From the NCBI GenBank assembly GCA_017548385.1, contig JAFZAE010000109.1, positions 1 through 52,699 on the forward strand: 52,699 bases of DNA, in the 5' to 3' direction. Made by a program: the position numbers and the translations under genes. Of this stretch, positions 1 to 33,821 are shown piece after piece. The stretch is from Prevotella sp. (GTDB lineage: Bacteria > Bacteroidota > Bacteroidia > Bacteroidales > Bacteroidaceae). How positions within the stretch are numbered: position 1 is the stretch's first letter; each line of letters starts with the position of its first letter. Below the pieces are notes generated by a model. It had not been told where the DNA came from. It saw nothing but the letters and a program-made list of their open reading frames with translations, and did not search any database.

Positions 1-87
1 CAGGATAGCCCTACAAGCCACACCCACAAGGACATCAATGACCACCAATGCCACAAGTACGATTACGCATCTTTTTAATAATTTCAT
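1..87 (-). CDS. N-terminus of a putative SGNH/GDSL-like membrane-anchored protein (partial)
   Basis: Only the first 29 codons are inside the window. The ATG at 85-87 begins a peptide MKLLKRCVIVLVALVVIDVL, a lysine/arginine start followed by one hydrophobic helix. It lies 4 nt after the stop of the MBOAT gene on the same strand. The same layout (MBOAT, then a protein beginning MKTLLSKLALLLVIVILCDF) occurs at 10416, where the downstream gene is SGNH-like. The identification rests on this position and the similar N-terminus; no catalytic motif is visible here. If correct, it would be the DltD/AlgX-like partner of the MBOAT enzyme, anchored in the inner membrane and facing the periplasm. Confidence 0.55.
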   Translation of the reverse strand, partial: MKLLKRCVIVLVALVVIDVLVGVACRAIL

Positions 88-91
88 ATTT

Positions 92-1543
92 TTAGAATTG
101 GAAATAGATGAACTGTCCTCCATCAAGCGCACCCATGAAAATGATATAAGCGATAATAGCCACAATAGAGGCAACACTCACAAAAGTGTTTTTTGAGTGC
201 AAAAAATTGACATCCCGTTTATACTCATCTTTGAATTCCTTGAAGAACATGATAAAGATTGATGGTATTCCAAGTACAACCAATTCCATCAGTCCTTCAT
301 GATGTATACGTCCGAATCCTCTTGAGAGATTTCCCAAAGTAGCAAAGAAGTCGGTCACAGACGCAGCCCTGAAAAGTAAAGCACCTATTACACAGAGGAT
401 GAATGTGAGCAGTCTCCGGCTCCACTTGTATACTTCGTTTTTCTTTAAATTATGCTTTTTCTCCATTTTCTTTCTTTTCTTTTCCACGGCAACAATCACA
501 ATAAGAATGAAACCATGATAGAGTCCGAAGAGAACAAAGGTCCAGTTTGCCCCATGCCATGCGCCAATAACCACCAAATTGATTAATGTAGCCAGATAAA
601 GCCCCCATGGTTGCCAGCTACGAAATGCCACAGTCAATGGCATGAAAATATAGTTAGTAATCCAAGATGTCAATGAGATGTGCCATCTTCTCCAATACTC
701 AGATACATTCTGTGCAAAGAAAGGTCGTTTGAAGTTTTCTGTCACACGGAATCCCATGATTCTCGCCACACCAATGGCCATGTCGGAATATCCTGCGAAA
801 TCAGCGTACATCTGTATCAAATACAGCACAGCAGCCACACAGATAGATGTGGCATTGTGATGACTATAGTTGTTGAGAATGGCATCTGTCCATGGTGAGA
901 GCCTGTCGGCAATACACATTTTGAGAAACATACCCCAGATTACTCTCTTAAAACCTTCAGAAAAATCATCTTCATTGAAATGTCTGCTTTTTGCCATCTG
1001 TGGCAAAAAGGTATTAGGTTTGTCGATAGGTCCCGACAGAATTGTTGGGAAGAAAGCCACGTATGCCGCGAATTGCACTGGATCACGCGAAGGTATAATG
1101 TTTTCCCTATGCACCTCGATGGGGTAGCTCATCAGTTTAAAGGTGAAGAAACTTATACCGATGGGCAATATAATATTGAAAGTCCCAATATTTGCATGGA
1201 TGCCAATGGAGTTGAATAGTTTGGCAAACTCAGTAACGAAAAAGCCAAAATACTTAAAATATAGCAAGACACCGACCCCTATTACAACTCCCAACGTTGT
1301 GAGCCACGAAGCTCTTTTGGGATTTGCAACGTTGTATTTGGCAATGGCAATCCCCAGGACATAGTACAGCCCAGTGACGACAGCCAATAGTGGAAGCATT
1401 TTCCAATCTGCCAATCCATAGAAGAAGTATGATGCTATCAGCAGCCACGTGTTCTGAGCTTTCGTGAATTTCCTGAGCAGTGTAAAATAGGGTATCAGGA
1501 AAACGAGGAAGAACAGCCAGAAATTGATGGAATTGACAACCAT
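92..1543 (-). CDS. MBOAT family O-acyltransferase (DltB/AlgI-like)
   Basis: A polytopic membrane protein of 483 residues, the usual length for AlgI/DltB-type MBOAT enzymes, which move an acyl group across or at the membrane onto a polysaccharide. The family blocks are visible: YADFAGYSDMAIG (about 246-258), WRRWHISLTSW (284-294) and GAWHGANWTF (327-336), with the invariant catalytic His330. Hydrophobic segments run throughout. The gene starts 7 nt after the acyl carrier protein gene and is followed 4 nt later by the SGNH-like gene, so the three are probably one transcript. The neighbouring carrier protein suggests the acyl donor is ACP-bound. The acceptor polymer is unknown. It is one of three MBOAT genes in the window. 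Confidence 0.93.
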   Translation of the reverse strand: MVVNSINFWLFFLVFLIPYFTLLRKFTKAQNTWLLIASYFFYGLADWKMLPLLAVVTGLYYVLGIAIAKYNVANPKRASWLTTLGVVIGVGVLLYFKYFGFFVTEFAKLFNSIGIHANIGTFNIILPIGISFFTFKLMSYPIEVHRENIIPSRDPVQFAAYVAFFPTILSGPIDKPNTFLPQMAKSRHFNEDDFSEGFKRVIWGMFLKMCIADRLSPWTDAILNNYSHHNATSICVAAVLYLIQMYADFAGYSDMAIGVARIMGFRVTENFKRPFFAQNVSEYWRRWHISLTSWITNYIFMPLTVAFRSWQPWGLYLATLINLVVIGAWHGANWTFVLFGLYHGFILIVIVAVEKKRKKMEKKHNLKKNEVYKWSRRLLTFILCVIGALLFRAASVTDFFATLGNLSRGFGRIHHEGLMELVVLGIPSIFIMFFKEFKDEYKRDVNFLHSKNTFVSVASIVAIIAYIIFMGALDGGQFIYFQF

Positions 1544-1550
1544 TTACGCC

Positions 1551-1790
1551 TTATAATTTTTTTAGGATGGAATCCACCATCTCTCCCACATTATTCCATT
1601 TCATAATTTCCAAGGATGTAAATTTCACCCCAAAATGTTTTTCCGTGGCCACAATGAGCTGAATATGGCTCAAAGAGTCCCATTCCTCTATATCATCGGC
1701 AGAAGTAGTGTCTGTAAGTTCTACATCCTCCAAGTCGAGTACATCACTAAAAATTTCGCTCAGTTGACTGAGAATTTCATTTCTATCCAT
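1551..1790 (-). CDS. Acyl carrier protein, dedicated
   Basis: A 79-residue acidic carrier protein. The phosphopantetheine attachment motif reads EEWDSLSHIQL, with Ser39 in the canonical D-S-L context; the length and helix pattern are typical of ACP/DltC proteins. It sits between an FkbH-like gene (179 nt upstream) and an MBOAT gene (7 nt downstream). FkbH proteins load small acyl groups, classically glyceryl from 1,3-bisphosphoglycerate, onto such carriers. It is therefore probably a dedicated carrier for a short acyl group later used by the MBOAT enzyme, not the fatty-acid synthesis ACP. It would act in the cytoplasm after activation by a phosphopantetheinyl transferase that is not in this window. 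Confidence 0.92.
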   Translation of the reverse strand: MDRNEILSQLSEIFSDVLDLEDVELTDTTSADDIEEWDSLSHIQLIVATEKHFGVKFTSLEIMKWNNVGEMVDSILKKL

Positions 1791-1969
1791 TCTTATTCAA
1801 TTATTTATTGTTATTATTCTTCTATGTTTACCATCTAGTTCACTAAATACATTAAATCAGAACTATTCACGAAACCGACTCCATCGCCTCCAAGCAAATA
1901 AAAGAGAAGAGAGCGAAAACAAAAGTCAATAAGAATATGTATTTTATCAAATAATAATATATAATATAA

Positions 1970-3706
1970 TTATTGCTTGACATCTATATAGCAAGTAAGA
2001 GACTGATAATTATCTAATATAAGTTCGTAAAGAAAGGTATCCCCTCCTTCTATCTTTTTGAATCCCAGCGAAGGATAATGTTGTTCCACCATTTTGTTTT
2101 TCGCTGTTGGGATATATTCTCCCACAATACGCCGGAACCCTGCATTTTTTGCCCTCTCCACCATTGTGTTAAGAGTAAAATTTTCCATACCACGTTTCAA
2201 CACCCTACAACTCATAAACCACGTATCGACAAAGAGCGAATCCTCGTCTAATGGTTTCATGATGACGACAGCAATCAACCCGTTGTCACCAAATCTATCT
2301 TCGAGTGTGAAACTCAAGTCGATAACATCTGGATTGTCAGCCATTGCCGCAATATCAGCCTCTGTATATCTGATGGTTCTCAGATTGAACTGGTTACTCC
2401 GCTGAGACAATTGTGCCACACGAGGCGTGTTAAATTTTGTGAACCCACTGACCGTAGAGACCATATTGAGCGATTTGAGAAAATCGGCCTCATTGGTAAA
2501 TGTTTTTGACAATGAGACACGTTTTGCCTCCACCTGATATTGTTTTGTCCTATCTTTATCCGCCTGACTATAGGAAGCCGTCTCGAAAAGATTGAGTGAA
2601 TACAGGTACTCTAAATACTCCCCTGGGTCTTCAGGCAATTCCGGCACCGTGATACCCTTAATGTTTTCCCTGACTATATTACGTTCAAAGGGATTGTCAT
2701 CCAAGAAAACCATAGAGTCGAAAGAGATATTAAGTATGCTCTGTATGGTGCGGATATTATCCACCTTTGTTTCCCAGTTGGCTTGGAACACAGCGATATC
2801 ATCAAGTTTTAAAATCATGTCAGGGTGTTTCTCGAAAGGCTCCTTGGCTGTATCTTCATTGTTTTTGGATGCAACACAAATAATTATTCCACGCTGTCGT
2901 AATTTTTTCACCCACATTTGGAATTCGGTAAAAGCCTTTCCTATACCCAAGCCATGACCTAAATTAATCCCTTCGATACCATCGTCGCCAATCACTCCTC
3001 CCCACACAGTATTGTCGAGGTCGAGAATGAGGCATTTTTTAAACTGTCCCTTGATGGCACACACGATATCCATCACCCTTGATGCCACAATAGGCAGAGC
3101 ATCAACGCTGAGCACCATCTCTGTACTCACATACACATTCGGAGTGAACATAAAATCTCGCCCATATTTGTTTTGAACAGCTGCAAGATCACACAAAAAG
3201 AGATTGGTGCATTTTTGTGATAGTAGCATCAGCCCTTCATTCAATTTTCTCACTTGCCAAGTAAAAGAAGAAGACACCTTATTGGCATAACTCCCAAAGA
3301 CGGTATCCTCGATTTCCGGATAATTGAAATAGACAATTATCTTATTAGCAAAAAAAGGATTTGTACAGATAGATTCCACAAATTGTAGCCTCTGTTCGGC
3401 GACATCTGCCTGTTCAGCCATAGATAACATACTATGGCACTCTCCCAATTTATGTGTGGATTGAAATACTACAATGAAATCAGCATCAAATTGATACAGT
3501 TCACTTGTAGGGTCAAGGAATTGTCGTTCAACTTGATTGTATTCAGCCTCAAATAAATCTATGTTGTATCCTCTTTCCACCCCCATTCCTTTAATGGCTG
3601 TACAGAGCAACTGGGTAGCCGTATCTCCCACCAACGCCATTTTTATACTGGGAAAAGTACTGGAGTCTTTTTTGAGATTCTTTTTGAGAGTTTTTAAATC
3701 AATCAT
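1970..3706 (-). CDS. FkbH-like HAD-IIIC protein (acyl loading onto ACP)
   Basis: 578 residues in the usual three-part FkbH layout: an N-terminal domain (about 20-215), a HAD-IIIC domain (about 222-370) and a GNAT-like C-terminal domain (about 420-578). HAD motif I is LILDLDNTVWGG, with nucleophile Asp229 and Asp231. Motif III lies in VASKNNEDTA and motif IV in FLDDNPFERN. FkbH homologues in polyketide pathways dephosphorylate 1,3-bisphosphoglycerate and load glyceryl on an ACP; some relatives load lactyl. The ATG at 3706 was chosen because an upstream in-frame extension starts only with TTG at 3730. A promoter lies at 3783-3813. The ACP and MBOAT genes follow, which suggests a glyceryl- or lactyl-type substituent. 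The exact acyl group cannot be read from the sequence. Confidence 0.88.
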   Translation of the reverse strand: MIDLKTLKKNLKKDSSTFPSIKMALVGDTATQLLCTAIKGMGVERGYNIDLFEAEYNQVERQFLDPTSELYQFDADFIVVFQSTHKLGECHSMLSMAEQADVAEQRLQFVESICTNPFFANKIIVYFNYPEIEDTVFGSYANKVSSSFTWQVRKLNEGLMLLSQKCTNLFLCDLAAVQNKYGRDFMFTPNVYVSTEMVLSVDALPIVASRVMDIVCAIKGQFKKCLILDLDNTVWGGVIGDDGIEGINLGHGLGIGKAFTEFQMWVKKLRQRGIIICVASKNNEDTAKEPFEKHPDMILKLDDIAVFQANWETKVDNIRTIQSILNISFDSMVFLDDNPFERNIVRENIKGITVPELPEDPGEYLEYLYSLNLFETASYSQADKDRTKQYQVEAKRVSLSKTFTNEADFLKSLNMVSTVSGFTKFNTPRVAQLSQRSNQFNLRTIRYTEADIAAMADNPDVIDLSFTLEDRFGDNGLIAVVIMKPLDEDSLFVDTWFMSCRVLKRGMENFTLNTMVERAKNAGFRRIVGEYIPTAKNKMVEQHYPSLGFKKIEGGDTFLYELILDNYQSLTCYIDVKQ

Positions 3707-3782
3707 TAAATTACAAGTTTTATCAAACAATCATTGTCTCTTCAACAAAGACTATCCTCATGAGAAATTATAAAATTGTGTG

Positions 3783-8994: not shown

Positions 8995-10410
8995 ATGATT
9001 TACAACTCCTTTCTATTTATTGTACTCTATCCGATTATATTCCTGCTCTACTACGCCATCCCTGCGCAGTATGTCAGGGCACGCAACCTCTATCTTCTTC
9101 TTGCCAGTTATGCGTTGTATATCAGCTGGAGTGCCTCGCACGCCCTGATTCTGATGGGCGTGACGGTGGTCACTTGGCTCACGTCAAAAATGGTGGTCAA
9201 GTCACGTCGTCCAAAGACAGTCCTCACCGTGGGCATTCTATTAGCTTTATTTCCACTTCTATTCTATAAATATTTCAATTTCATCAACGATAGTATCAGC
9301 CAGTTGTTAGGATCGTTCGGTCTTTCCGTGCAACTTGCCGGTCTCAATTGGGCTATACCTGTTGGCATTTCTTTCTTTACATTTCAAGCCATTGGGTATG
9401 TCTTCGACGTATACCGTAAAAAGACAGACGTAGAAAATGACTTTCTTACATACGCATTGTTTGTCTCGTTTTTTCCATCCATTCTCTCTGGCCCCATCAA
9501 CAAAGCTTCATTGGTCATTCCACAACTCCGGGCATTGCGTCCATATCTGGACTATTCTAAAGCCGTAGCAGGAATGAAGATGCTGCTATGGGGAATGTTT
9601 ATGAAAGTAGTGGTGGCTGACCGTGTGGCCATCTATGTCGACATGGTGCTCCCTCAATATGAGCACTTCACAGGCACCTCATGCTTTGTGGCAAGCATAC
9701 TCTATTCCATTCAAATATATGCAGATTTTGGTGGTTATTCGCTCATGGCCATTGGCGTTGGCAAGACATTGGGTTTTGAGTTGACCGAGAACTTCCGTCG
9801 TCCCTACTTTTCATTCAGCGTGACAGATTTTTGGCGTCGCTGGCACATATCCCTTTCCACCTGGCTTCGCGACTACATCTACATTCCTTTGGGCGGCAGC
9901 CGCTGTAGCAAAGTGCGTAACTATTGGAATATCTTTGTCACCTTTCTGGTAAGCGGTATTTGGCACGGTGCCAACTGGACATTCATCGTATGGGGTATAC
10001 TTCACGGTCTTTTTCAGATTGTGGAGAAAATGCTTGGCGAGCAAAAATGCAGATACGGGGCATTAGGGCGTACGGTCAAGACCGTAATCACTTTTCTGCT
10101 CATCAATTTCGCCTGGATATTTTTCCGTATGCCAACCCTGGCAGATGCATGCGGAGTGATAGCAAGGATATTCAACTTCAGTCTTTCTCCCAAAGTCTTC
10201 TATGGTGACTTGCAGACACCGATGTTTATTCTTATCGGTATCCTGTTGTTACTGCTCAAGGATATCCGCGACGAGTTTTTCCCTCACCGTATGCCCCTCA
10301 TGACCAGCCGCCACACGGTGGTCAGATGGTTCACATACGTGACACTCATTTTGGCAATTTTGCTCATGGGTGTGTTTAGCAACGACCAATTTATATATGC
10401 AAACTTCTGA
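8995..10410 (+). CDS. MBOAT family O-acyltransferase (second copy)
   Basis: 471 residues with hydrophobic segments throughout and all MBOAT blocks: IPVGISFFTFQAIGY (121-135), YADFGGYSLMAIG (242-254), WRRWHISLSTWLRDYIYIPL (280-299) and SGIWHGANWTF with catalytic His324. Such enzymes O-acylate extracellular polysaccharides, usually with acetyl groups. The next gene, 5 nt downstream, is an SGNH-like protein, the usual partner. No dedicated carrier protein is adjacent, unlike the MBOAT gene at 92, so the donor here may be acetyl-CoA. The ATG at 8995 gives the normal N-terminus. Confidence 0.95.
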   Translation: MIYNSFLFIVLYPIIFLLYYAIPAQYVRARNLYLLLASYALYISWSASHALILMGVTVVTWLTSKMVVKSRRPKTVLTVGILLALFPLLFYKYFNFINDSISQLLGSFGLSVQLAGLNWAIPVGISFFTFQAIGYVFDVYRKKTDVENDFLTYALFVSFFPSILSGPINKASLVIPQLRALRPYLDYSKAVAGMKMLLWGMFMKVVVADRVAIYVDMVLPQYEHFTGTSCFVASILYSIQIYADFGGYSLMAIGVGKTLGFELTENFRRPYFSFSVTDFWRRWHISLSTWLRDYIYIPLGGSRCSKVRNYWNIFVTFLVSGIWHGANWTFIVWGILHGLFQIVEKMLGEQKCRYGALGRTVKTVITFLLINFAWIFFRMPTLADACGVIARIFNFSLSPKVFYGDLQTPMFILIGILLLLLKDIRDEFFPHRMPLMTSRHTVVRWFTYVTLILAILLMGVFSNDQFIYANF

Positions 10411-10415
10411 GACAG

Positions 10416-11348
10416 ATGAAAACACTTTTATCAAAACTCGCCCTGCTATTAGTCATTGTGATTCTATGCGATTTCCTCATTGGCAAATCCTTAGACCATG
10501 TGGTGAGCGCCATCACAACAGGAGGACAGGGACGCGACAACTACATCTGCGAAAAAAGTCAGGAAGACATCATGATATTCGGTTCCTCGAAAGCTGTCCA
10601 TCATTATAACTCAGGTATTATTGAAGACTCGTTGGATATGACATGTTATAATTGCGGAGAGGATGGGAATGGCATCCTTTTGGGTTACGGGCGTCTGCTG
10701 ATGGCCAAGGAGCGTCATCAGCCCAAAATCATCATCTATGACGTGGTGCCCAAATACGATCTACTCCAAAACGAGAACCACCAATATCTGGCGTGGCTAA
10801 AAGCCCACTACAATCGAGCAGGCATCGCAGGAATCTTTCACGACACCGACAACCTGGAGCGTTACAAAATGCACTGCTCATGCTATCGTCACAACTCTAA
10901 ATTTTTACAAAACCTCATTGTCTATTTCACCCATATTTCCACAGACGAAGGCATAAAGGGCTACCGTCCTCTACATGGCAAACTAAACACTATGAGAGTG
11001 AAGGAGCGCACATACAAAGAACATTACGACTACGACTCTGTGAAAATGAAATATCTCCATCAATTCATTGCACAATCAGCAGGTTCCAAATTATATTTTG
11101 TTGTCTCACCTGTATGGTATAGGATGGACACCACACAGACATCTGCCACCCAACCTCTAATAGAAATATGCCAGCGTGAGGGTATTCCATTTTTCGACTT
11201 TACCAATGACCCCAAATATGTAGGAAACGACACATTCTTTAAAGACGGCACACATCTTAATTCACAAGGTGCCAACGAATTCACCAAGGATTTGATACGC
11301 AAGATTAAAGAATACGAAAAGAGTCATTCTGACAAATGTAATAGCTGA
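10416..11348 (+). CDS. SGNH-like protein paired with MBOAT
   Basis: 310 residues. One N-terminal hydrophobic helix (about 5-22) looks like a signal anchor, which would place the rest in the periplasm. The SGNH block I equivalent is IMIFGSSKAVHHY (Ser near residue 58), and the C-terminal Asp-x-x-His block is KDGTHLNSQGANEF. These are the features of DltD/AlgJ/AlgX-like partners that complete O-acylation of a polymer started by MBOAT proteins. It follows the MBOAT stop by 5 nt. A related but divergent protein pairs with the MBOAT gene at 24578. Enzymatic activity is likely because the Ser, Asp and His are kept. Confidence 0.82.
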   Translation: MKTLLSKLALLLVIVILCDFLIGKSLDHVVSAITTGGQGRDNYICEKSQEDIMIFGSSKAVHHYNSGIIEDSLDMTCYNCGEDGNGILLGYGRLLMAKERHQPKIIIYDVVPKYDLLQNENHQYLAWLKAHYNRAGIAGIFHDTDNLERYKMHCSCYRHNSKFLQNLIVYFTHISTDEGIKGYRPLHGKLNTMRVKERTYKEHYDYDSVKMKYLHQFIAQSAGSKLYFVVSPVWYRMDTTQTSATQPLIEICQREGIPFFDFTNDPKYVGNDTFFKDGTHLNSQGANEFTKDLIRKIKEYEKSHSDKCNS

Positions 11349-11391: not shown

Positions 11392-12528
11392 ATGAGCAAG
11401 AAAAAACTAAAGGATTTCTTTTTCGCCTCTGACGAGAAAATGAGAAACATCCTCGATAAAACTTCCCTGACCCACGCTATCTATGAGCATGTCATCCTGC
11501 CAATAGAAGCAAGTATCTTCAAAGCAGGCAATTACAAAATAAGTACCCGTTTCCGCTCAGAGCTTTCCAATGTCAGAGAGCTCTACTATACTCATGAAGA
11601 AAAGCAAAACCCTAAGTTGGCTCGCAAATTAGAAAAAAAGTTGGTCAAAGCCCATATTGCCCACAGGATGAAACCAGAGGAATACTTCCTCTATGGATTG
11701 CGCGGGAAAGACTACTGGGAACAAAAAGAATACCTCTCCGACGTAGAACGTAAAAACATCATCCTTCGTCACGGAGACCCTGCTGTTTACGAAGAACTCA
11801 ACAACAAAGACGTGCTTTATGAACATGCCAAGAAATACTTTCGTCGTGAGGCCTGCGTTATCGACACGAATGCCAGTAAAAGCGCTTTCACAGATTTTGC
11901 TCTCCGCCACAAAAAATTCTTTGTGAAACCCATTGATGGTACCTGGGGGAGAGGTGCGTCTATCCTCATGGCAAACACGACGGCAGAGGCAGAGGCTATC
12001 TTCGACAAACTTAGCAGGGAGGGAAGATGGTTTGTTGAAGAACTTATTAAACAAGTCCCAGAAACCGCCATGTGGAATGACACCAGTGTCAACACCGTGC
12101 GAATACCAGCTTTATACACACGCTCTGGTTGTAAGATACTACAGCCATTCCTTCGCACAGGTCGAAAAGGAGCAGTCGTGGACAACGCAGGTGGTGGAGG
12201 CATCTTTGCTGTCTTCGATGCCGAAACGGGTATTATTACCACAGACGGTGTTGACGAGCATGGGGGCCGTTATGAGCGTCACCCCGACTCTGGTATCGTT
12301 TACAAAGGCTGGCAGGTGCCACGGTATGAAGAACTCAAAGCCCTGACCGCCGAATTGCTTCATGCCCTACCCTCCCATCCTCGATACGTGGCATTCGATT
12401 TTGCCTTAACAGCAGAGGGATGGGTTTTGGTTGAGGGCAACTACAACGGACAGTTCGTCGGCCAAATGGCAGATCACCTAGGTGTTAGAAACGAATTTCT
12501 CAAATACTATCTCAGCGATCAACCATAA
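11392..12528 (+). CDS. Sugar-transfer-associated ATP-grasp protein (second)
   Basis: 378 residues from the ATG at 11392; an in-frame TTG at 11374 adds six residues but is less likely. It shares its plan with the genes at 7945 and 13477: a lysine/arginine-rich N-terminal part, then the ATP-binding loop FFVKPIDGTWGRGASIL (about 179-195), SVNTVRIPA, DNAGGGGIFAVFD, HPDSG, and the metal site WVLVEGNYNGQFVGQM near the C-terminus. It follows the MBOAT/SGNH pair after 43 nt, with the cytidylyltransferase next. The substrate is not evident. The family is defined by association with sugar-transfer loci, and a direct role in capsule modification is inference. Confidence 0.85.
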   Translation: MSKKKLKDFFFASDEKMRNILDKTSLTHAIYEHVILPIEASIFKAGNYKISTRFRSELSNVRELYYTHEEKQNPKLARKLEKKLVKAHIAHRMKPEEYFLYGLRGKDYWEQKEYLSDVERKNIILRHGDPAVYEELNNKDVLYEHAKKYFRREACVIDTNASKSAFTDFALRHKKFFVKPIDGTWGRGASILMANTTAEAEAIFDKLSREGRWFVEELIKQVPETAMWNDTSVNTVRIPALYTRSGCKILQPFLRTGRKGAVVDNAGGGGIFAVFDAETGIITTDGVDEHGGRYERHPDSGIVYKGWQVPRYEELKALTAELLHALPSHPRYVAFDFALTAEGWVLVEGNYNGQFVGQMADHLGVRNEFLKYYLSDQP

Positions 12529-12572
12529 AGACAGCCTACGAAGCAATTATTCATCAACGCAAAGCATCTCCA

Positions 12573-13286
12573 ATGAACATAGCAATAATCCTTGCAGGAG
12601 GCAGTGGTAGCCGTATCGGCGGCACATTACCCAAACAATTTCTCAGCGTGGCTGGGAAAAAAATCATCGAGCACACCATTGACGTTTTTGAGAACAACGA
12701 CTTAATCGACGAGATTGCCATAGTAAGCAAAAAAGAATATACGTCGGACGTGGAGCGTATTGTCACGACAAACCAATACCATAAGGTGAAAAAAATCCTC
12801 ACTGGGGGCAAGGAGCGCTACGACTCCAGTCTTGCAGCCATCTCTGCATATACCAACGACGATGACAATCTCTTGTTACACGACGCCGTACGCCCATTAG
12901 TGAACGACCGCATCATCAACGACTGCATCGAAGCGCTGAAAACCTACAGAGCCGTCGATGTGGCTGTTAATACCACCGACACCATCATAATGGTTGATGA
13001 TGACAACATCATCAAGACGATTCCCCCACGAGTTTCGCTTCGCAACAGCCAGACGCCCCAATGCTTCAAACGAGGCACCATACGTCGCGCATATGAACTT
13101 GCCCTCCAAGACCCTCATTTTGAGACAACCGACGACTGTGGCGTGGTGCATAAGTACCTGCCAAATGAACCCATCTGCGTAGTAGCGGGCGAAGTTTTCA
13201 ATCTAAAAGTAACTTATGCAGAAGACCTATTTCTGCTCGAAAGACTCTGCGAACAACGCAATAGTTCCAATATGAAGGAGACTTGA
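12573..13286 (+). CDS. IspD/TarI-like cytidylyltransferase
   Basis: 237 residues of the IspD/TarI family, which transfer CMP from CTP to a sugar- or polyol-phosphate. The CTP-binding start is AIILAGGSGSRIGGTLPKQF (4-23); further family blocks are TGGKERYDSS, LLHDAVRPL and NSQTPQCF. IspD makes CDP-methylerythritol; TarI and capsule homologues make CDP-ribitol or related CDP-polyols. Its place among glycan genes favours the second type, but no TarJ-like dehydrogenase is in the window. The chromosome's true ispD could lie elsewhere or be this gene. The product, a CDP-linked polyol, may be the donor used by a nearby transfer protein. Confidence 0.82.
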   Translation: MNIAIILAGGSGSRIGGTLPKQFLSVAGKKIIEHTIDVFENNDLIDEIAIVSKKEYTSDVERIVTTNQYHKVKKILTGGKERYDSSLAAISAYTNDDDNLLLHDAVRPLVNDRIINDCIEALKTYRAVDVAVNTTDTIIMVDDDNIIKTIPPRVSLRNSQTPQCFKRGTIRRAYELALQDPHFETTDDCGVVHKYLPNEPICVVAGEVFNLKVTYAEDLFLLERLCEQRNSSNMKET

Positions 13287-13351
13287 GAAAGTTGAGCATA
13301 TAACATCATGAGTCTGTCCGACACTTTGATAGAGAAGCAGAGTTTGATGTC

Positions 13352-13434
13352 ATAAAAGGAAGAACCTACAAAAAAGTATCATTATATTGGAAGATTGGGA
13401 AAAAAATCATATCTTTGCAACTGATTGGAAAAGT
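13352..13434 (+). repeat. Direct repeat with promoter, copy 1
   Basis: Aligns without gaps to 14618-14700 at a constant offset of 1266 nt. The last 43 nt (13392-13434 and 14658-14700) are identical and the upstream part is similar (shared AGGAAGAA and TACAAAAAAG). The two copies bracket a single AT-rich ATP-grasp gene, and each contains the same promoter. Confidence 0.9.
13387..13417 (+). promoter_or_regulatory. Promoter of the third ATP-grasp gene (repeat copy 1)
   Basis: TTG at 13387-13389 and TATCTTTG at 13410-13417 with 20 nt between. Transcription would begin about 13424, some 53 nt before the ATG at 13477. The same elements recur in copy 2. Confidence 0.75.
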
Positions 13435-13476
13435 TACTTTGACATATAACATTTACAAATAACAATTCGTTTAACA

Positions 13477-14538
13477 ATGAAATTCGGAGAAAACAAGGAC
13501 TGGGATAGAGAACATATTCTTAGTTCAAAAAGTGTCATTTATAAAATAACTGACAAGGTAAAAGATTTTAGAAAACAGGGATTCTCTATGACAGATAGTG
13601 CGTTTTATAACTTGGGAGTAAACGACTATCATGATTATATCTCAACATGGGAGTCTTATTCACCTGTTTACAGAAATCTCCAGCCATCAGGAATTGTCTC
13701 ATATGACAATCTTGTTTATAACAACATTTTTGATGACAAATATCTATTCTACATTGTTTTCAGTTCATTTGTAAATACACCGAAAATTTTCTCTTTAATC
13801 TATGATGGCAAAATTACGGATGTTGTGGATTCATTTGATTCCAACCATCTGTATGAATCTTTGTTGAGTCTCAATGGTGGTGTCATCAAATATCGTTCTG
13901 GTGCCAATGGATTTGGAATATATGTTTTCGATGTATACAATAATCGTTTGTTCTATAACAACAGAGAAATTTCTCATGATGATTTGGCTGAAATAGTAAG
14001 CAAATTTAAGTTTGGTATCATACAAGAAAAAATCGTTCAAGGCAAATTTGCTAAATCTCTTTTTGAAAAAACTATCAATACGATAAGAATCATCTCTATA
14101 AGATCAAAAAATGGAGTTGAACACGAGATTGTAGCAGCCATACAACGAATAGGTACAAATAGAAGTGCACCTGTGGATAATTTTGCACAGGGAGGAGGAT
14201 GTTCCATTATTGATTTAGAAACGGGTGTTCTTGGAACAGTTGGAAGAATAACTGAAAACGGTCCAATGTTCTCTGACAATCACCCAGATACTGGAAAAAC
14301 GATAAAGGGACTTATAGTCCCCAATTGGGATGAAATAAAGTCTGCTATTATTGGTTTAACAAGAAAACTACCATTCTTTTGTTATGCTGCCTGGGATGTC
14401 GTTGTTTGTGACGATGGAATAACCATTATCGAAATAAACAAGAGGTCTTCACTGGACGTTTTTCAAATCCACAAAGGTTTCCGCAACGAATTGTTAGGAC
14501 AAAGATACAAAGAAAATGGCTGGTTAGTAGACTTTTAA
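13477..14538 (+). CDS. Sugar-transfer-associated ATP-grasp protein (third, AT-rich)
   Basis: 353 residues. The plan matches the ATP-grasp genes at 7945 and 11392: GVIKYRSGANGFGIYVF as the nucleotide-binding loop, KTINTIRIISIRSK, DNFAQGGGCSIIDLETG, HPDTGKTIKG and the metal site ITIIEINKRS. Its codons favour A and T far more than those of its neighbours, and the N-terminal half differs from the other two. It is bracketed by direct promoter repeats (13352 and 14618), as if inserted as a single-gene cassette or left by a duplication. The protein is cytoplasmic. The substrate is unknown; it may alter the specificity of the same modification step as the other homologues. Confidence 0.83.
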   Translation: MKFGENKDWDREHILSSKSVIYKITDKVKDFRKQGFSMTDSAFYNLGVNDYHDYISTWESYSPVYRNLQPSGIVSYDNLVYNNIFDDKYLFYIVFSSFVNTPKIFSLIYDGKITDVVDSFDSNHLYESLLSLNGGVIKYRSGANGFGIYVFDVYNNRLFYNNREISHDDLAEIVSKFKFGIIQEKIVQGKFAKSLFEKTINTIRIISIRSKNGVEHEIVAAIQRIGTNRSAPVDNFAQGGGCSIIDLETGVLGTVGRITENGPMFSDNHPDTGKTIKGLIVPNWDEIKSAIIGLTRKLPFFCYAAWDVVVCDDGITIIEINKRSSLDVFQIHKGFRNELLGQRYKENGWLVDF

Positions 14539-23566: not shown

Positions 23567-24571
23567 TTACTTGTCATGATAGACGCGCGCCATAATGGTG
23601 TCGGCGATTGCTGGCAGGTAATGCGACCACTCATAATAATTATGATAGTCGCTGGTCCACTTGTTGACCCCTGAGAAGTCAAAGACACGATCTCGACCAA
23701 AAATATCATATAATATCTGAAGGTCGTTGGTATTGAGTTGTACCTGGTCGTATAGCGGACTGATTACGATTCTATAGTCAGTATGATGCTTGTCAAACAT
23801 ACGGCGAATGTCTCTTAACCCATCTCTCTGCCGTGGATTACTGAGATATTCCCTTGCCATGCTTGGTGTTTGTTTTTCCTTAAATTCTTTGAGACGACTC
23901 TTGTTATAATAATTTCCTGCAGCAATCAAACTATCCTCCCACAATCTCGGTTCTTCATTGGTCACTGGGTCATAATACTGGTAGTTGGTTCCTTTGGCAA
24001 GAAATCCTGTCATCTCTGGTGTAAACTTCCCTGTTAATTCGTATTTTGTCCAATAGTAGAGGAATCTCACATCCATCCATTGCACAAAATGTTCCGCATG
24101 AAAAGTGAGAAAATTACGATAATGGTCAAGTACAGGGGGCATAATGAAAGGCCTTCCATCCTGCTCAAGATGTCTTAACAACGTATAGTCCATCACCAAC
24201 AAAGCGTTACGAATCTTCTCCCCTTTTTCGTCAATCAGTCTGAGTTTATAATAAATACCGTTAATCGACCCTCCAGATTCAGAGAAGTGATAGCATGAAC
24301 TTTGCTGAGGAATATATTTCTTCCATTCTTCTATCCTATAGCAAAGGCTTCGTGAATTGCCAAAGATGAATGAGTCATAATGATGCTGCTTATATCTATT
24401 GAGATAATTCATGGTAGAGACAAAATTTCTATTGAGCGATCCACCATCACCCTTAATATAATAGATGTCGTAGTTCCAAATCACTTTAAAAGGATCAAAC
24501 CAAATATAGCATCCCAACAAGATCAGAAAAGGAATGGCAAACAATAAACTATTATTTATAAACCTTCTCAT
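23567..24571 (-). CDS. SGNH-like protein paired with MBOAT (third pair)
   Basis: 334 residues. The N-terminus has one hydrophobic helix (about 7-24), a likely membrane anchor with the body in the periplasm. The serine block is SFIFGNSRSLCYRI (near 70), and the C-terminal DYHNYYEWSHYLP could carry the Asp-His pair. This is the layout of DltD/AlgJ-like partners of MBOAT enzymes. It follows the MBOAT gene on the same strand by 6 nt. Its sequence differs clearly from the SGNH protein at 10416, so the two probably serve different acceptors. It may O-acetylate the polymer assembled by the surrounding glycan genes. Confidence 0.78.
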   Translation of the reverse strand: MRRFINNSLLFAIPFLILLGCYIWFDPFKVIWNYDIYYIKGDGGSLNRNFVSTMNYLNRYKQHHYDSFIFGNSRSLCYRIEEWKKYIPQQSSCYHFSESGGSINGIYYKLRLIDEKGEKIRNALLVMDYTLLRHLEQDGRPFIMPPVLDHYRNFLTFHAEHFVQWMDVRFLYYWTKYELTGKFTPEMTGFLAKGTNYQYYDPVTNEEPRLWEDSLIAAGNYYNKSRLKEFKEKQTPSMAREYLSNPRQRDGLRDIRRMFDKHHTDYRIVISPLYDQVQLNTNDLQILYDIFGRDRVFDFSGVNKWTSDYHNYYEWSHYLPAIADTIMARVYHDK

Positions 24572-24577
24572 AGGCTC

Positions 24578-26020
24578 CTAAAATTGGAAATAGATAAAAG
24601 TCTGTCCTGAACCTGCTGCCACGACAATCCCCATAATGATTAAATAATACACAGCCCATCTGACCATCCGATATTTAAACGGCCATATACCTGTAAATTG
24701 CAAAGCATGCTCCTTGTCTCGCTGCAGCCACTCCACAACCAGCAACGCGATGGCATATCCGAGATAATTCAACCCATATAGTGCTGAGATCTCCAACGGT
24801 TTATTGGTAAAAATATGGTATAAATAGTCCAGTGCCTGTGTCATATTCTCTGCCCTGAAAATAATCCAACCAATCACGGCAAGAGCAAATGTCAGTGTCA
24901 TTTGTAGGATTTCTTTCACATTGGGCAACCATCGTTTGTATGCCACTACATGCTGATATTTGGTATTGATACCCATAATATTATATATAGCGAGAAGGGT
25001 GGCATGAAAAAGCCCCCAGCATATAAACGTCCAGTTGGCTCCGTGCCATAAGCCGCTAACACCCCATACCACATAGATATTCCGGATGATTTTCCATTTT
25101 TCACATCTGCTGCCTCCCAATGGGAAATAGACATAGTCTCTGAACCAAGTCATCAGCGAGATATGCCAGCGTCGCCAAAACTCCGGAATACTTCTTGAGA
25201 AATATGGGTAATTGAAATTACGTTTCAAGTTGAAGCCAAACAGCCGGGCACATCCGATAGCAATATCGCTATATCCAGAGAAATCACAGTAAATTTGGAA
25301 AGTGAAGAGTACCCCTAACAAGATTAACGTCATCCCTGGCAGTTGCCCATAGTTGTTCCAATGCTCATTGACAATGGCGGCACAATTGTCTGCTACCACC
25401 ATTTTTTTCAAGAATCCCCACAACATTTGCCTACATCCATCGACAGCTTGGGCATAGTCGAATCGTCGGCTACGCTGAAACTGTGGCAGCAAGTTGGTCG
25501 CCCTCTCAATAGGTCCGGCTACCAACTGGGGGAAAAAACTGATGTAAGCGAAGAACTCTATGACATCATGAGTAGCGGGTAGTTTCTTTTGATACACATC
25601 GATGGTGTAACTTAATGCTTGGAATGTATAGAAACTAATGCCTACGGGCAGTATGAAATCGAGTGTTACCCAGTCCATCTTGTAACCCATGGACTGGAAA
25701 AGTGCGTCGAAATTCTCCATAAAGAAGTTGTAATACTTGAACACACAAAGTATCAACAAATTGAGAATGATATTTGCCGCACTGACAGCATGTTGTGCCT
25801 TTCTCTTCCCCTGAAAATGCTCAATGAGCAATCCGCTACCATAGCTGCAAAAAGAAGTGAGAACAATAAGCAAAAGAAAGCGCCAGTCCCACCAGCCATA
25901 GAACACATAGCTTGCGACAACAACAAAGAAGTTTTGCCATTTCCTTGTCCTGGACAACAGCCAATAGACCAGAAACACGACAGGTAAGAAAAGTAGGAAT
26001 TCAAATGAATTAAAGAGCAT
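24578..26020 (-). CDS. MBOAT family O-acyltransferase (third copy)
   Basis: 480 residues from the ATG at 26018-26020. A longer in-frame reading up to 26065 runs through the promoter at 26047 and is rejected. The typical N-terminus is MLFNSFEFLLFLPVVFLVYW. MBOAT blocks are LPVGISFYTFQALSYTID, YCDFSGYSDIAIG (about 244-256), FWRRWHISLMTWFRDYVYFP (281-300) and SGLWHGANWTF with His326. It is polytopic. It is transcribed with the SGNH-like gene from the repeat-associated promoter, independently of the plus-strand glycan operons. Its likely role is O-acylation of a surface polysaccharide in the periplasm. Confidence 0.95.
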   Translation of the reverse strand: MLFNSFEFLLFLPVVFLVYWLLSRTRKWQNFFVVVASYVFYGWWDWRFLLLIVLTSFCSYGSGLLIEHFQGKRKAQHAVSAANIILNLLILCVFKYYNFFMENFDALFQSMGYKMDWVTLDFILPVGISFYTFQALSYTIDVYQKKLPATHDVIEFFAYISFFPQLVAGPIERATNLLPQFQRSRRFDYAQAVDGCRQMLWGFLKKMVVADNCAAIVNEHWNNYGQLPGMTLILLGVLFTFQIYCDFSGYSDIAIGCARLFGFNLKRNFNYPYFSRSIPEFWRRWHISLMTWFRDYVYFPLGGSRCEKWKIIRNIYVVWGVSGLWHGANWTFICWGLFHATLLAIYNIMGINTKYQHVVAYKRWLPNVKEILQMTLTFALAVIGWIIFRAENMTQALDYLYHIFTNKPLEISALYGLNYLGYAIALLVVEWLQRDKEHALQFTGIWPFKYRMVRWAVYYLIIMGIVVAAGSGQTFIYFQF

Positions 26021-26044
26021 ATTCTTGTCTTCACTTTTTCGATA

Positions 26045-26124
26045 TGCAAAGTTACATAAAAACATGAGCAGAACAAAAAGAACAGTTCTTTTTTTTCAGA
26101 GAGGAACGAACTTATCCAAAGTAT
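26045..26124. repeat. Promoter-associated intergenic repeat, copy B
   Basis: Counterpart of 7793-7875 (see that entry for shared blocks). Here the inverted repeat is GAACAGTTC at 26080-26088, again directly upstream of the -33 element. The copy precedes the MBOAT/SGNH operon. Confidence 0.7.
26047..26077 (-). promoter_or_regulatory. Promoter of the third MBOAT/SGNH operon
   Basis: Minus-strand TAACTTTG (26054 to 26047) with TTTG (26077 to 26074) 19 nt upstream, the same elements and spacing as the gpmI promoter. The transcription start would be near 26040, 20 nt before the ATG at 26020. Confidence 0.7.
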
Positions 26125-32762: not shown

Positions 32763-33821
32763 ATGGCACTCATAGAATTTGAGGGTGTAGGTATCCGCGC
32801 ACTGGCGGGTTGTGTACCCAAGCGGATTATTCACAATTATGAATATACCGAATACTTTCCCTCCGATCAGGTGAAGGAAGTAGTTGACAAGGTGGGTGTC
32901 TTGGAACGACGTTTCGCCGACGATGCCACTTGTTCATCAGATCTGTGCTATGCTGCAGCTGAACAACTACTTGCCGACAACGAAATCGACCGTGCAGAAA
33001 TCGACCTACTAGTGTTTCTTTCACAAACGCCAGACTATCGTATGCCTGCCACCTCTATCATATTGCAACATCGGCTTGGTTTGCCCAACAGTTGTGTGGC
33101 ATTCGACATACAATTAGGCTGTGCAGGATTCTGCTATGCTCTCTCTGTGGTGTATAGCATGCTTCAAGGCGGGAATTTCCGCAAGGCACTGATTCTCGAC
33201 GGAGAGACACGTTCAAAAGTCTATTCACCCAAAGATCGCCGAAGTGCCTTTATCTTTGGCGATGCAGGTGTAGCCGCACTGATAGAACGCGATGCAAAAT
33301 TCGGCAAGAGCTGGTTTTCGCTTAATTCCGACGGATCACGCTACGATCTGATAATGATCAAGGGAGGCGGTTATCGCCATCCCAGCAGCATAGAGACACT
33401 TCGTGAGCAGGTAATTGACGAATATGGCAACATCCGTAGCGATGAACAAGGTTTCATGCGTGGTGGCGACGTATTCACATTTGTCATCAGGGAAATTCCC
33501 CGCGACATAAAGAAAACGCTTGAATTTGCTGGAATCGACAAAGACCATATAGACTACTATGTGTTTCATCAGGCCAACAACTACATCAACAGTTACATTG
33601 CCAACAAAATGAAACTCGACACAGCAAAGATTCCACATACAATAGAGAAGTATGGCAACACATCTTCCGTTTCTGTGCCCATCACCATCGTAAGCGAATT
33701 GAAAGACCAGTTGCAAGGCAAGAAAACCATCATGATGAGCGCTTTCGGCGTAGGTATGTCGTGGGCTACGGCTGTGGTGACATTTGTCGATTGCCACATT
33801 AGCAACATCGTAGAAATATGA
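32763..33821 (+). CDS. Beta-ketoacyl-ACP synthase III-like enzyme
   Basis: 352 residues, with the thiolase fold of FabH. The catalytic triad is intact: Cys120 in DIQLGCAGFCYAL, His269 in YVFHQANNYI and Asn299 in YGNTSSVSVP. FabH condenses acetyl-CoA (or another acyl-CoA) with malonyl-ACP to give a beta-ketoacyl-ACP. The adjacent ACP and SDR imply that the product is reduced in place. The gene is coupled to the SDR gene by a 4-nt overlap (ATGA). It is slightly longer than E. coli FabH (317). It probably belongs to an acyl side-chain pathway, not to housekeeping lipid synthesis. Confidence 0.93.
   Translation: MALIEFEGVGIRALAGCVPKRIIHNYEYTEYFPSDQVKEVVDKVGVLERRFADDATCSSDLCYAAAEQLLADNEIDRAEIDLLVFLSQTPDYRMPATSIILQHRLGLPNSCVAFDIQLGCAGFCYALSVVYSMLQGGNFRKALILDGETRSKVYSPKDRRSAFIFGDAGVAALIERDAKFGKSWFSLNSDGSRYDLIMIKGGGYRHPSSIETLREQVIDEYGNIRSDEQGFMRGGDVFTFVIREIPRDIKKTLEFAGIDKDHIDYYVFHQANNYINSYIANKMKLDTAKIPHTIEKYGNTSSVSVPITIVSELKDQLQGKKTIMMSAFGVGMSWATAVVTFVDCHISNIVEI

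Follow-up and report, generated by a model that had tools for sequence, protein, structure and literature searches.

The contig JAFZAE010000109.1 of Prevotella sp. (assembly GCA_017548385.1), 52,699 nucleotides long and taken here in its entirety as "the window" (contig C83 of the source genome, G000), begins with an operon on its minus strand. In the order of transcription, the operon comprises the genes for an FkbH-like protein, a dedicated acyl carrier protein (ACP) and an MBOAT O-acyltransferase, followed by the first 29 codons of an SGNH-like gene. We propose that these genes encode an MBOAT-SGNH system that is fed by a carrier protein and O-acylates a polymer of the cell surface, and put the probability of this reading at roughly 0.72. 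Judged from its sequence, the operon would be a variant of carrier-fed MBOAT-SGNH surface acylation, new in its FkbH loader and in the swappable acyl-tailoring genes of its relatives.

Organization of the operon

The gene for the FkbH-like glyceryl transferase/phosphatase lies at 1970..3706 on the minus strand and encodes 578 aa when counted from the ATG at 3706; the open reading frame (ORF) as listed begins at a TTG at 3730, and the ATG is an alternative start. The codon of the HAD aspartate is at 3020-3022 and that of an invariant Cys at 2207-2209 (Cys500 from the ATG, Cys508 in the TTG-started ORF). The protein matched Pfam FkbH_N (E 8e-83), TIGR01686 (298.2 bits versus a cut-off of 146.65) and, over residues 12-390, the structure PDB 3slr (uncharacterized protein BF1531; E 5.7e-172). 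The ACP of 79 aa (1551..1790, minus strand) carries its phosphopantetheine serine, Ser39, at codon 1674-1676; it matched PF00550 over the cut-off (39.2 bits, E 8.5e-10) and is one of three PP-binding matches in the source genome. The MBOAT of 483 aa (92..1543, minus strand) matched PF03062 over the cut-off (67.5 bits, E 1.6e-18), and its catalytic His330 is encoded at 554-556. The SGNH-like acyltransferase gene is cut by the contig end, and only its signal-anchor codons are left (1..87, minus strand).

A first-pass annotation of the window had described these genes as tightly spaced and running in one direction. All four genes were borne out, the first three by the family models and the SGNH-type start by a related locus and a second contig described below, and Ser39 and His330 were both found as that annotation had named them. 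Tight spacing applies to the ACP-MBOAT (7 nt) and MBOAT-SGNH (4 nt) junctions, but not to the FkbH-ACP junction, where the gap is 179 nt. This last interval (1791..1969) holds no minus-strand ORF of at least 50 aa.

Co-conservation of the operon genes

The GTDB species-genome collection was scanned with the FkbH protein, blind to the neighbouring genes, and the best 80 of 94 relatives (49-87% identity) were kept. The neighbours were identified by six-frame profile searches around the beginning of the FkbH match (3.5 kb before, 7.5 kb after). Of the 80 loci, 77 have an ACP and 71 an MBOAT; the ACP lies directly before the MBOAT in 65, and an SGNH gene adjoins it in 63. When only the 65 loci with 6 kb or more of downstream sequence were counted, the respective figures were 65, 60, 58 and 54. 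Close relatives make up most of this set: clustering at 70% FkbH identity gave 16 groups, a single one of which took in 58 loci, and the ACP was present in 16/16 groups and the MBOAT in 10/16. Gene co-conservation, whose absence the first-pass annotation had named beforehand as grounds for abandoning its proposal, therefore holds. Chance adjacency was rejected, because an MBOAT stands near FkbH in this many loci whereas the 3.1-Mb source genome contains only three MBOAT matches, all of them inside the window.

FkbH itself is rare. It scored over the model cut-off in 7/151 family genomes and 0/14 control genomes, and was detected at E 1e-20 in 6/60 genus genomes, including the source genome. 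The closest FkbH proteins among labelled genomes come mostly from uncultured Prevotellaceae with RUG labels, which we take to be rumen assemblies. Chryseobacterium isolates carry operon genes too, as do metagenome-assembled genomes labelled Ferruginibacter, Mucilaginibacter and Clostridium. The isolate records that carry the operon are Prevotella aff. ruminicola Tc2-24, Prevotella sp. tf2-5 and Chryseobacterium sp. FH2 and c4a.

Some loci are arranged differently. L026, L084 and L092 have FkbH and an ACP with no MBOAT in range, and the neighbours recognized by eye in L026 and L084 include flippase-like genes and genes for an aldo/keto reductase and a hexapeptide transferase; the FkbH loader of such loci may feed another kind of acyltransferase. 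Genome G075 contains a second ACP-MBOAT-SGNH set (L147, 8524-11135), about 0.28 Mb from the one FkbH match of this genome that exceeds the cut-off. Both are on one contig, and a single FkbH loader may serve two transferases there.

FkbH as the putative loader of the carrier

D-1,3-bisphosphoglycerate is the substrate that FkbH domains load and dephosphorylate, and a glyceryl group is left on the carrier (PMC8949500, PMC7489565). The features of an FkbH glyceryl transferase/phosphatase were found in the operons: the domain scored over its cut-off, the HAD motif was present in 79/80 loci and the C-terminal Cys motif in 80/80, and a stand-alone ACP gene accompanied FkbH in all but three. The role of the invariant C-terminal Cys is inferred only.

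The first-pass annotation had also placed FkbH in the position of an adenylating enzyme, and this agrees with our results, in that a motif scan of the 80 loci found no adenylating enzyme in the operons. The scan, which was not a family search, detected an AMP-binding signature in one neighbourhood, on the opposite strand and 7.2 kb before FkbH. The source genome has eight AMP-binding matches, none of them in the window; one lies on contig C271, about 11 kb past the SGNH gene.

Sequence marks of a putatively carrier-fed MBOAT

When 109 MBOAT rows were put into a quick tree, one clade (SH-aLRT 100) took in 64 of the 69 ACP-linked MBOATs, including that of the operon. The two other MBOATs of the window were placed outside it, among rows without an ACP. 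Furthermore, the two groups differ in a loop. Ordinary MBOATs carry a PLGG loop, mostly [IF]PLGG, after a conserved RRWH, whereas the operon MBOAT reads MPLTV (residues 301-305; 629..643, minus strand), a stretch predicted to dock the carrier. The motif PLGG[SNT] was present in 0/65 MBOATs of the ACP clade versus 33/37 non-ACP MBOATs. In these counts L070, whose contig ends before the ACP place, was put with the clade; L117 and L146 (a single gene, with PLGG) and the five MBOATs that are ACP-linked but fall outside the clade were left out. Three of the remaining four non-ACP rows read PLGGG or PMGGS; the fourth, without a P[LM]GG loop, is L110, which was scored as non-ACP although its ACP precedes FkbH.

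We also looked in the reverse direction, from MBOAT to its neighbours. Thirty MBOAT loci were fetched from 151 family genomes (118 with a match), and an ACP lay upstream in four; FkbH was in the flank in three of these and further upstream in the fourth (G075). The loop was then scored, using the broader motif P[LM]GG[SNTG], in 29 new loci; these came from 395 phylum genomes that were searched, 56 of which gave a match. Loop state and ACP were concordant in 29/29, with 27 loci having the loop and no ACP and two having an ACP and no loop; one of the latter shows FkbH and the other MaoC and SDR genes in view. Since only two loci were positive, the result says more about the ordinary type than about the ACP type.

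The structure of DltB, the MBOAT of the Dlt system, was matched by the operon MBOAT (6bug, E 8.9e-34). His288 and His330 align with DltB His289 and His336, and this catalytic pair is unchanged between the two groups. According to PMC11035591, Met36 and Val39 of the carrier DltC contact DltB Met302, Val305, Ile306 and Met309, salt bridges link DltC to DltB Lys312 and Arg317, and Met332 is among the residues that block the tunnel. The columns equivalent to DltB Met302, Val305 and Ile306, which correspond to the MPLTV stretch, rank 20, 10 and 9 among 271 columns ordered by how well they distinguish the groups, and column 332 ranks 4. A mean rank as low as that of the four alignable contacts was reached by 477 of 200,000 random sets of four positions, and at 2/218 places when the same spacing was slid along DltB. 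Gene linkage, the clade and the docking-site positions thus point to a carrier protein as the acyl donor of this MBOAT. The use of acetyl-CoA by the MBOAT, which the first-pass annotation had listed as a result that would refute it, is disfavoured by the same marks together with the loss of PLGG.

The SGNH-like partner and the shuttle motif

The nearest relative of the operon, locus L036, is 87%, 91% and 89% identical to the window in FkbH, ACP and MBOAT, respectively, and shares its upstream genes (GpmI, UDG and YkgJ as labelled by eye; AraC by Pfam). Directly after its MBOAT, L036 has an intact SGNH-like gene of 296 aa. In the source genome, contig C271 opens with the remainder of such a gene (positions 2-817; 270 aligned aa, 89% identical to L036), and C271 and the window overlap by 19 identical bases, the first 19 of C271 and the last 19 of the window as read on the operon strand. 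The intact gene in L036 and the overlapping remainder on C271 therefore show that the fourth gene is real. On C271 it is followed by a gene of 360 aa that appears by eye to be acyltransferase-3-like.

Gly57, Ser59, His272 and Asn274 are invariant in 22/22 relatives of the SGNH-like protein, and by comparison with the conserved SGNH blocks they would be the catalytic residues. The SGNH label was given because of these invariant residues, the position after the MBOAT and weak GDSL matches.

The operon MBOAT ends in the motif FIYFQF (95..112, minus strand), a form of FXYXXF in which Tyr480 (codon 104-106) would be the shuttle residue. PMC12148441 describes the invariant Tyr in the C-terminal FXYXXF of the MBOAT PatA as being acetylated and as shuttling the group to the SGNH protein PatB, and places FXYXXF of the Dlt system on a separate protein, DltX. 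FXYXXF was found in 65/65 ACP-clade and 37/37 non-ACP MBOATs. Together with the PF03062 match and the invariant His330, it gives the operon MBOAT the features expected of the MBOAT component of MBOAT-SGNH polymer acyltransferases.

Exchangeable candidate tailoring genes beside FkbH

Many relatives carry extra genes between FkbH and the ACP or just after the ACP, and L089, L107 and L109 carry them before FkbH. This slot was found to contain a VOC gene, MaoC and SDR genes, or MaoC with a split transketolase. One representative of each matched Glyoxalase_4 (VOC), MaoC_dehydratas, adh_short (SDR), and Transketolase_N and Transket_pyr/Transketolase_C. VOC occurred in 28/80 loci, of which 27 have a full gene and one, L036, was counted and tree-labelled as VOC on the strength of a 59-aa remnant on the opposite strand; the MBOAT genes were on the opposite strand from FkbH in 12. 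MaoC and/or SDR occurred in 23/80, five of these with the split transketolase pair (TktN and TktC near FkbH and MaoC in L058, L062, L064, L089 and L103), and 29/80 had none. VOC was never found with MaoC or SDR (0/80 loci; hypergeometric 5e-6, a value that ignores relatedness). In L036, a gene for a CotH-dockerin protein (11758-13671) occupies the FkbH-ACP slot.

Residues that we take from the respective families to be active-site positions are well kept in sets to which a few proteins encoded outside the operon also belong. In VOC, His7, Glu54 and His78 are present in 32/32 and Glu127 in 31/32; Asp33 and His38 are present in 21/21 MaoC proteins, and Tyr148 and Lys152 in 25/25 SDR proteins. 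The best structure matches of VOC were 2qh0 and 3hdp, deposited as lactoylglutathione lyase and glyoxalase-I, and its match to a methylmalonyl-CoA epimerase model was below the cut-off. Since glyceryl-S-ACP is a chemical analogue of lactoylglutathione, the glyoxalase product, we propose that VOC, in which the glyoxalase-type metal-ligand positions are kept, would act as a C2 epimerase of glyceryl-ACP. MaoC and SDR could dehydrate the group to enol-pyruvyl-ACP and then reduce it to lactyl-ACP. Glyceryl-to-lactyl conversion is known in polyketide loading modules (bryostatin, FR901464).

The modules have been exchanged, and loci with closely similar operon genes differ in the slot. L038 (MaoC and SDR) and L039 (VOC) are 95%, 94%, 87% and 81% identical in FkbH, ACP, MBOAT and SGNH. 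Between L054 and L055 the identities in FkbH, ACP, MBOAT and the (partial) SGNH amount to 88-98%, yet MaoC and SDR are present in L055 and absent from L054. A fixed pairing of MBOAT clades with single tailoring modules did not hold, given the 17 changes of module state needed on the MBOAT tree and the L038/L039 pair. As the genes beside FkbH are swappable and VOC never occurs with the others, different acyl groups are predicted. Tentatively, and at somewhat less than even odds, we suggest a modular acyl alphabet, in which an FkbH-ACP-MBOAT-SGNH chassis esterifies surfaces from a glycolytic intermediate and swapped genes rewrite the group, as in polyketide loading modules but for the envelope. 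No added gene would give D-glyceryl, VOC its epimer, MaoC and SDR lactyl, and MaoC with the split transketolase something larger.

Distant FkbH proteins of the genus (30-39% identity) have other neighbours, for example VOC, and some have KASIII and SDR. A VOC gene lies directly upstream of FkbH (33-38%) in L027, L032, L033 and L034, preceded by KASIII in the first three; the only MBOAT in view is 7.5 kb off on the other strand in L033. VOC thus accompanies FkbH outside the acylation operon too.

The acyl group in the source strain

The source genome has a VOC relative past the operon, on the minus strand of C271 at about 1978-2309 (L161; match at 2031-2312, 60% identity), opposite in strand to the SGNH gene. 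Its frame changes near the 3' end, the final part is absent, and the conserved first residues are not preceded by an ATG, GTG or TTG. The tailoring step thus seems to be decaying in the lineage of the window and L036, although the broken gene could instead be an assembly fault. A second VOC match in the genome is faint (31%, E 3e-4). MaoC gave no match, in a search without a positive control and in a genome that is about 82% complete. Since the slot of the window holds no tailoring gene, MaoC gave no match and VOC is broken, unmodified glyceryl is the likeliest transferred group, as a first guess. The earlier suggestion of glycerate or lactate is thereby narrowed: relatives with added genes could make lactyl or the other glyceryl epimer, whereas the window operon is without such genes.

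Proposed mechanism and alternative explanations

Following the precedent of its family, FkbH would dephosphorylate 1,3-bisphosphoglycerate and load D-glyceryl onto the phosphopantetheine of the ACP. Glyceryl-ACP would then dock on the MBOAT from the cytoplasmic side, in the manner of DltC on DltB, a step for which the support comes from sequence comparison. His330 may help to pass the acyl group to Tyr480 in FXYXXF, as in PatA; here the motif is seen and the chemistry is presumed. Outside the membrane, the serine of the membrane-anchored SGNH-like protein would accept the group and esterify a surface polysaccharide. In the relatives, the products of VOC, MaoC with SDR, or MaoC with the split transketolase would alter the ACP-bound group.

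Several observations weigh against a carrier-fed surface acylation system. Nine of the 80 FkbH loci have no MBOAT in range (L060, L063, L084, L090, L092, L106, L108, L112 and L113); in three of them the contig ends within 2.7 kb and in one within 5.4 kb, and five are among the 65 loci with long flanks. Genome G005 likewise has FkbH and an ACP and no MBOAT match, and FkbH-ACP therefore serves other ends too. In the MBOAT tree, long branches were flagged by the tool, and five ACP-linked MBOATs (L095, L098, L105, L107 and L109) lie outside the clade, of which only that of L098 keeps PLGG. Conversely, an MBOAT of genome G122 (L146, 6905-8398), 50% identical to that of the operon, falls within the clade on a long branch, yet it keeps PLGG, lacks an upstream ACP and comes from a genome in which FkbH gave no match; it would be a natural switch of donor type, perhaps by recombination. 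Four of the six published DltB contacts could be aligned, as 309 and 312 fall in a gap, and Arg317 ranks only 98. The separating columns were computed without reference to the published DltB-DltC contacts, but with the helix already in mind as the DltC site. FXYXXF, being equally present in both MBOAT groups, speaks for the relay and not for the ACP. The family matches of the SGNH-like protein are weak, the best for L036 being Lipase_GDSL_2 at E 0.011.

Three other explanations were considered. The same machinery might transfer another group in this strain, such as lactyl, L-glyceryl or another small hydroxy acid, through a tailoring enzyme encoded elsewhere or through the broken-looking VOC, were it still active or misassembled. 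Tailoring genes are indeed frequent in relatives (VOC in 28 of 80 loci, one of them a remnant, and MaoC and/or SDR in 23), and the source genome keeps the VOC relative on C271 and the faint second match; the C271 gene is broken, L036 keeps no more than its 59 aa of VOC, and the MaoC search, with its limits given above, was negative, so that we regard this explanation as unlikely, yet deserving real weight. A product that is a secreted small molecule or a lipid, for instance a tetronate-like natural product or an acylated lipid, appears improbable to us. FkbH-ACP pairs are best known from polyketide clusters, and MBOATs can acylate lipids, but the recurrent partners of FkbH here are the ACP, MBOAT and SGNH genes; no polyketide synthase or nonribosomal peptide synthetase was recognized by eye among the commonest neighbour families listed, from representative sequences only; KASIII within 3 kb before FkbH was confined to L027, L032 and L033, all with a distant FkbH; and the AMP-binding motif scan was clean in the operons. 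Finally, the MBOAT-SGNH pair might O-acetylate from acetyl-CoA, with FkbH-ACP as a separate pathway that merely shares the operon. MBOATs without an ACP are the rule (26/30 family loci and 27/29 phylum loci). Nevertheless, the clade, the loss of PLGG and the docking-site changes all accompany the ACP, and the G122 MBOAT, which is without ACP or FkbH, does carry PLGG; we consider this explanation very improbable.

Genomic context of the window

Further along the contig there is a polysaccharide locus of the Wzx/Wzy type. Some relatives have the operon beside housekeeping genes (SecA-like and FeoB-like, by eye), and the acceptor may therefore be made elsewhere than in the neighbouring polysaccharide locus. 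Two further MBOAT genes are located at 8995-11348 and 23567-26065, each adjoining an SGNH-like gene (310 and 334 aa; labels by eye). Both have the PLGG loop and no ACP, and are set among ATPgrasp_ST proteins, DegT aminotransferases, Wzx-/Wzy-type genes and glycosyltransferases; these MBOAT-SGNH pairs presumably O-acetylate from acetyl-CoA. Inside the polysaccharide locus, a KASIII gene (ACP_syn_III; 32763-33821) suggests another acyl-building pathway for a sugar.

Implications and comparison with known systems

In searches of an open-access library, we found no description of an FkbH-fed MBOAT-SGNH surface acylation. If the proposed system is confirmed, MBOAT-SGNH acylation would not be confined to acetyl-CoA or ATP-activated amino acids, and a Gram-negative envelope could be decorated directly from glycolysis through an FkbH-loaded carrier. 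Moreover, loss of PLGG at the carrier-docking helix is a candidate sequence rule for separating carrier-fed from acyl-CoA-fed bacterial MBOATs. The tailoring genes would predict particular surface acyl groups in operon-bearing isolates and could guide glycan chemists.

The first-pass annotation had called the operon Dlt-like. This is apt for the way in which it would work, with a cytoplasmically loaded carrier, an MBOAT fed from that carrier and a separate membrane-anchored partner outside, and three carrier-contact positions of DltB are among the columns most divergent between ACP-linked and other MBOATs. Membership of the Dlt family itself was rejected. The loader is FkbH and not the adenylating ligase DltA, which the motif scan did not find; the MBOAT, though plainly homologous to DltB by its structure match, scored 194.9 bits against the DltB model TIGR04091, whose cut-off is 375; none of the 12 structure matches of the ACP at E 0.001 was named DltC, all being named ordinary ACPs; and the DltD family PF04914 gave no good match among the 22 SGNH relatives, with one match at E 0.044 only. 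The Tyr motif also differs, being inside the operon MBOAT, whereas Dlt has it on DltX.

Other carrier-based systems share single elements with the operon. In the FkbH-ACP glyceryl loaders of tetronate and methoxymalonate pathways (e.g., Mad7-Mad8), the glyceryl group enters a polyketide, whereas here the next genes encode a membrane acyltransferase and an SGNH-like protein. The Alm system (AlmE-AlmF-AlmG), which adds glycine to lipopolysaccharide, likewise acylates the envelope via a carrier, and is compared to Dlt in PMC3783018; it differs in activating an amino acid with ATP and in using an LPLAT-type acyltransferase instead of FkbH and an MBOAT.

PatA-PatB and other MBOAT-SGNH O-acetyltransferases (alginate, cellulose) resemble the operon in their adjoining MBOAT and SGNH genes, the invariant His and FXYXXF. 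PatA takes acetyl-CoA, whereas a dedicated ACP stands beside the operon MBOAT and the PLGG loop is gone. With Dlt-like carrier features and a PatA-like Tyr motif, the system would thus join a Dlt-like donor side to a PatA-like acceptor side.

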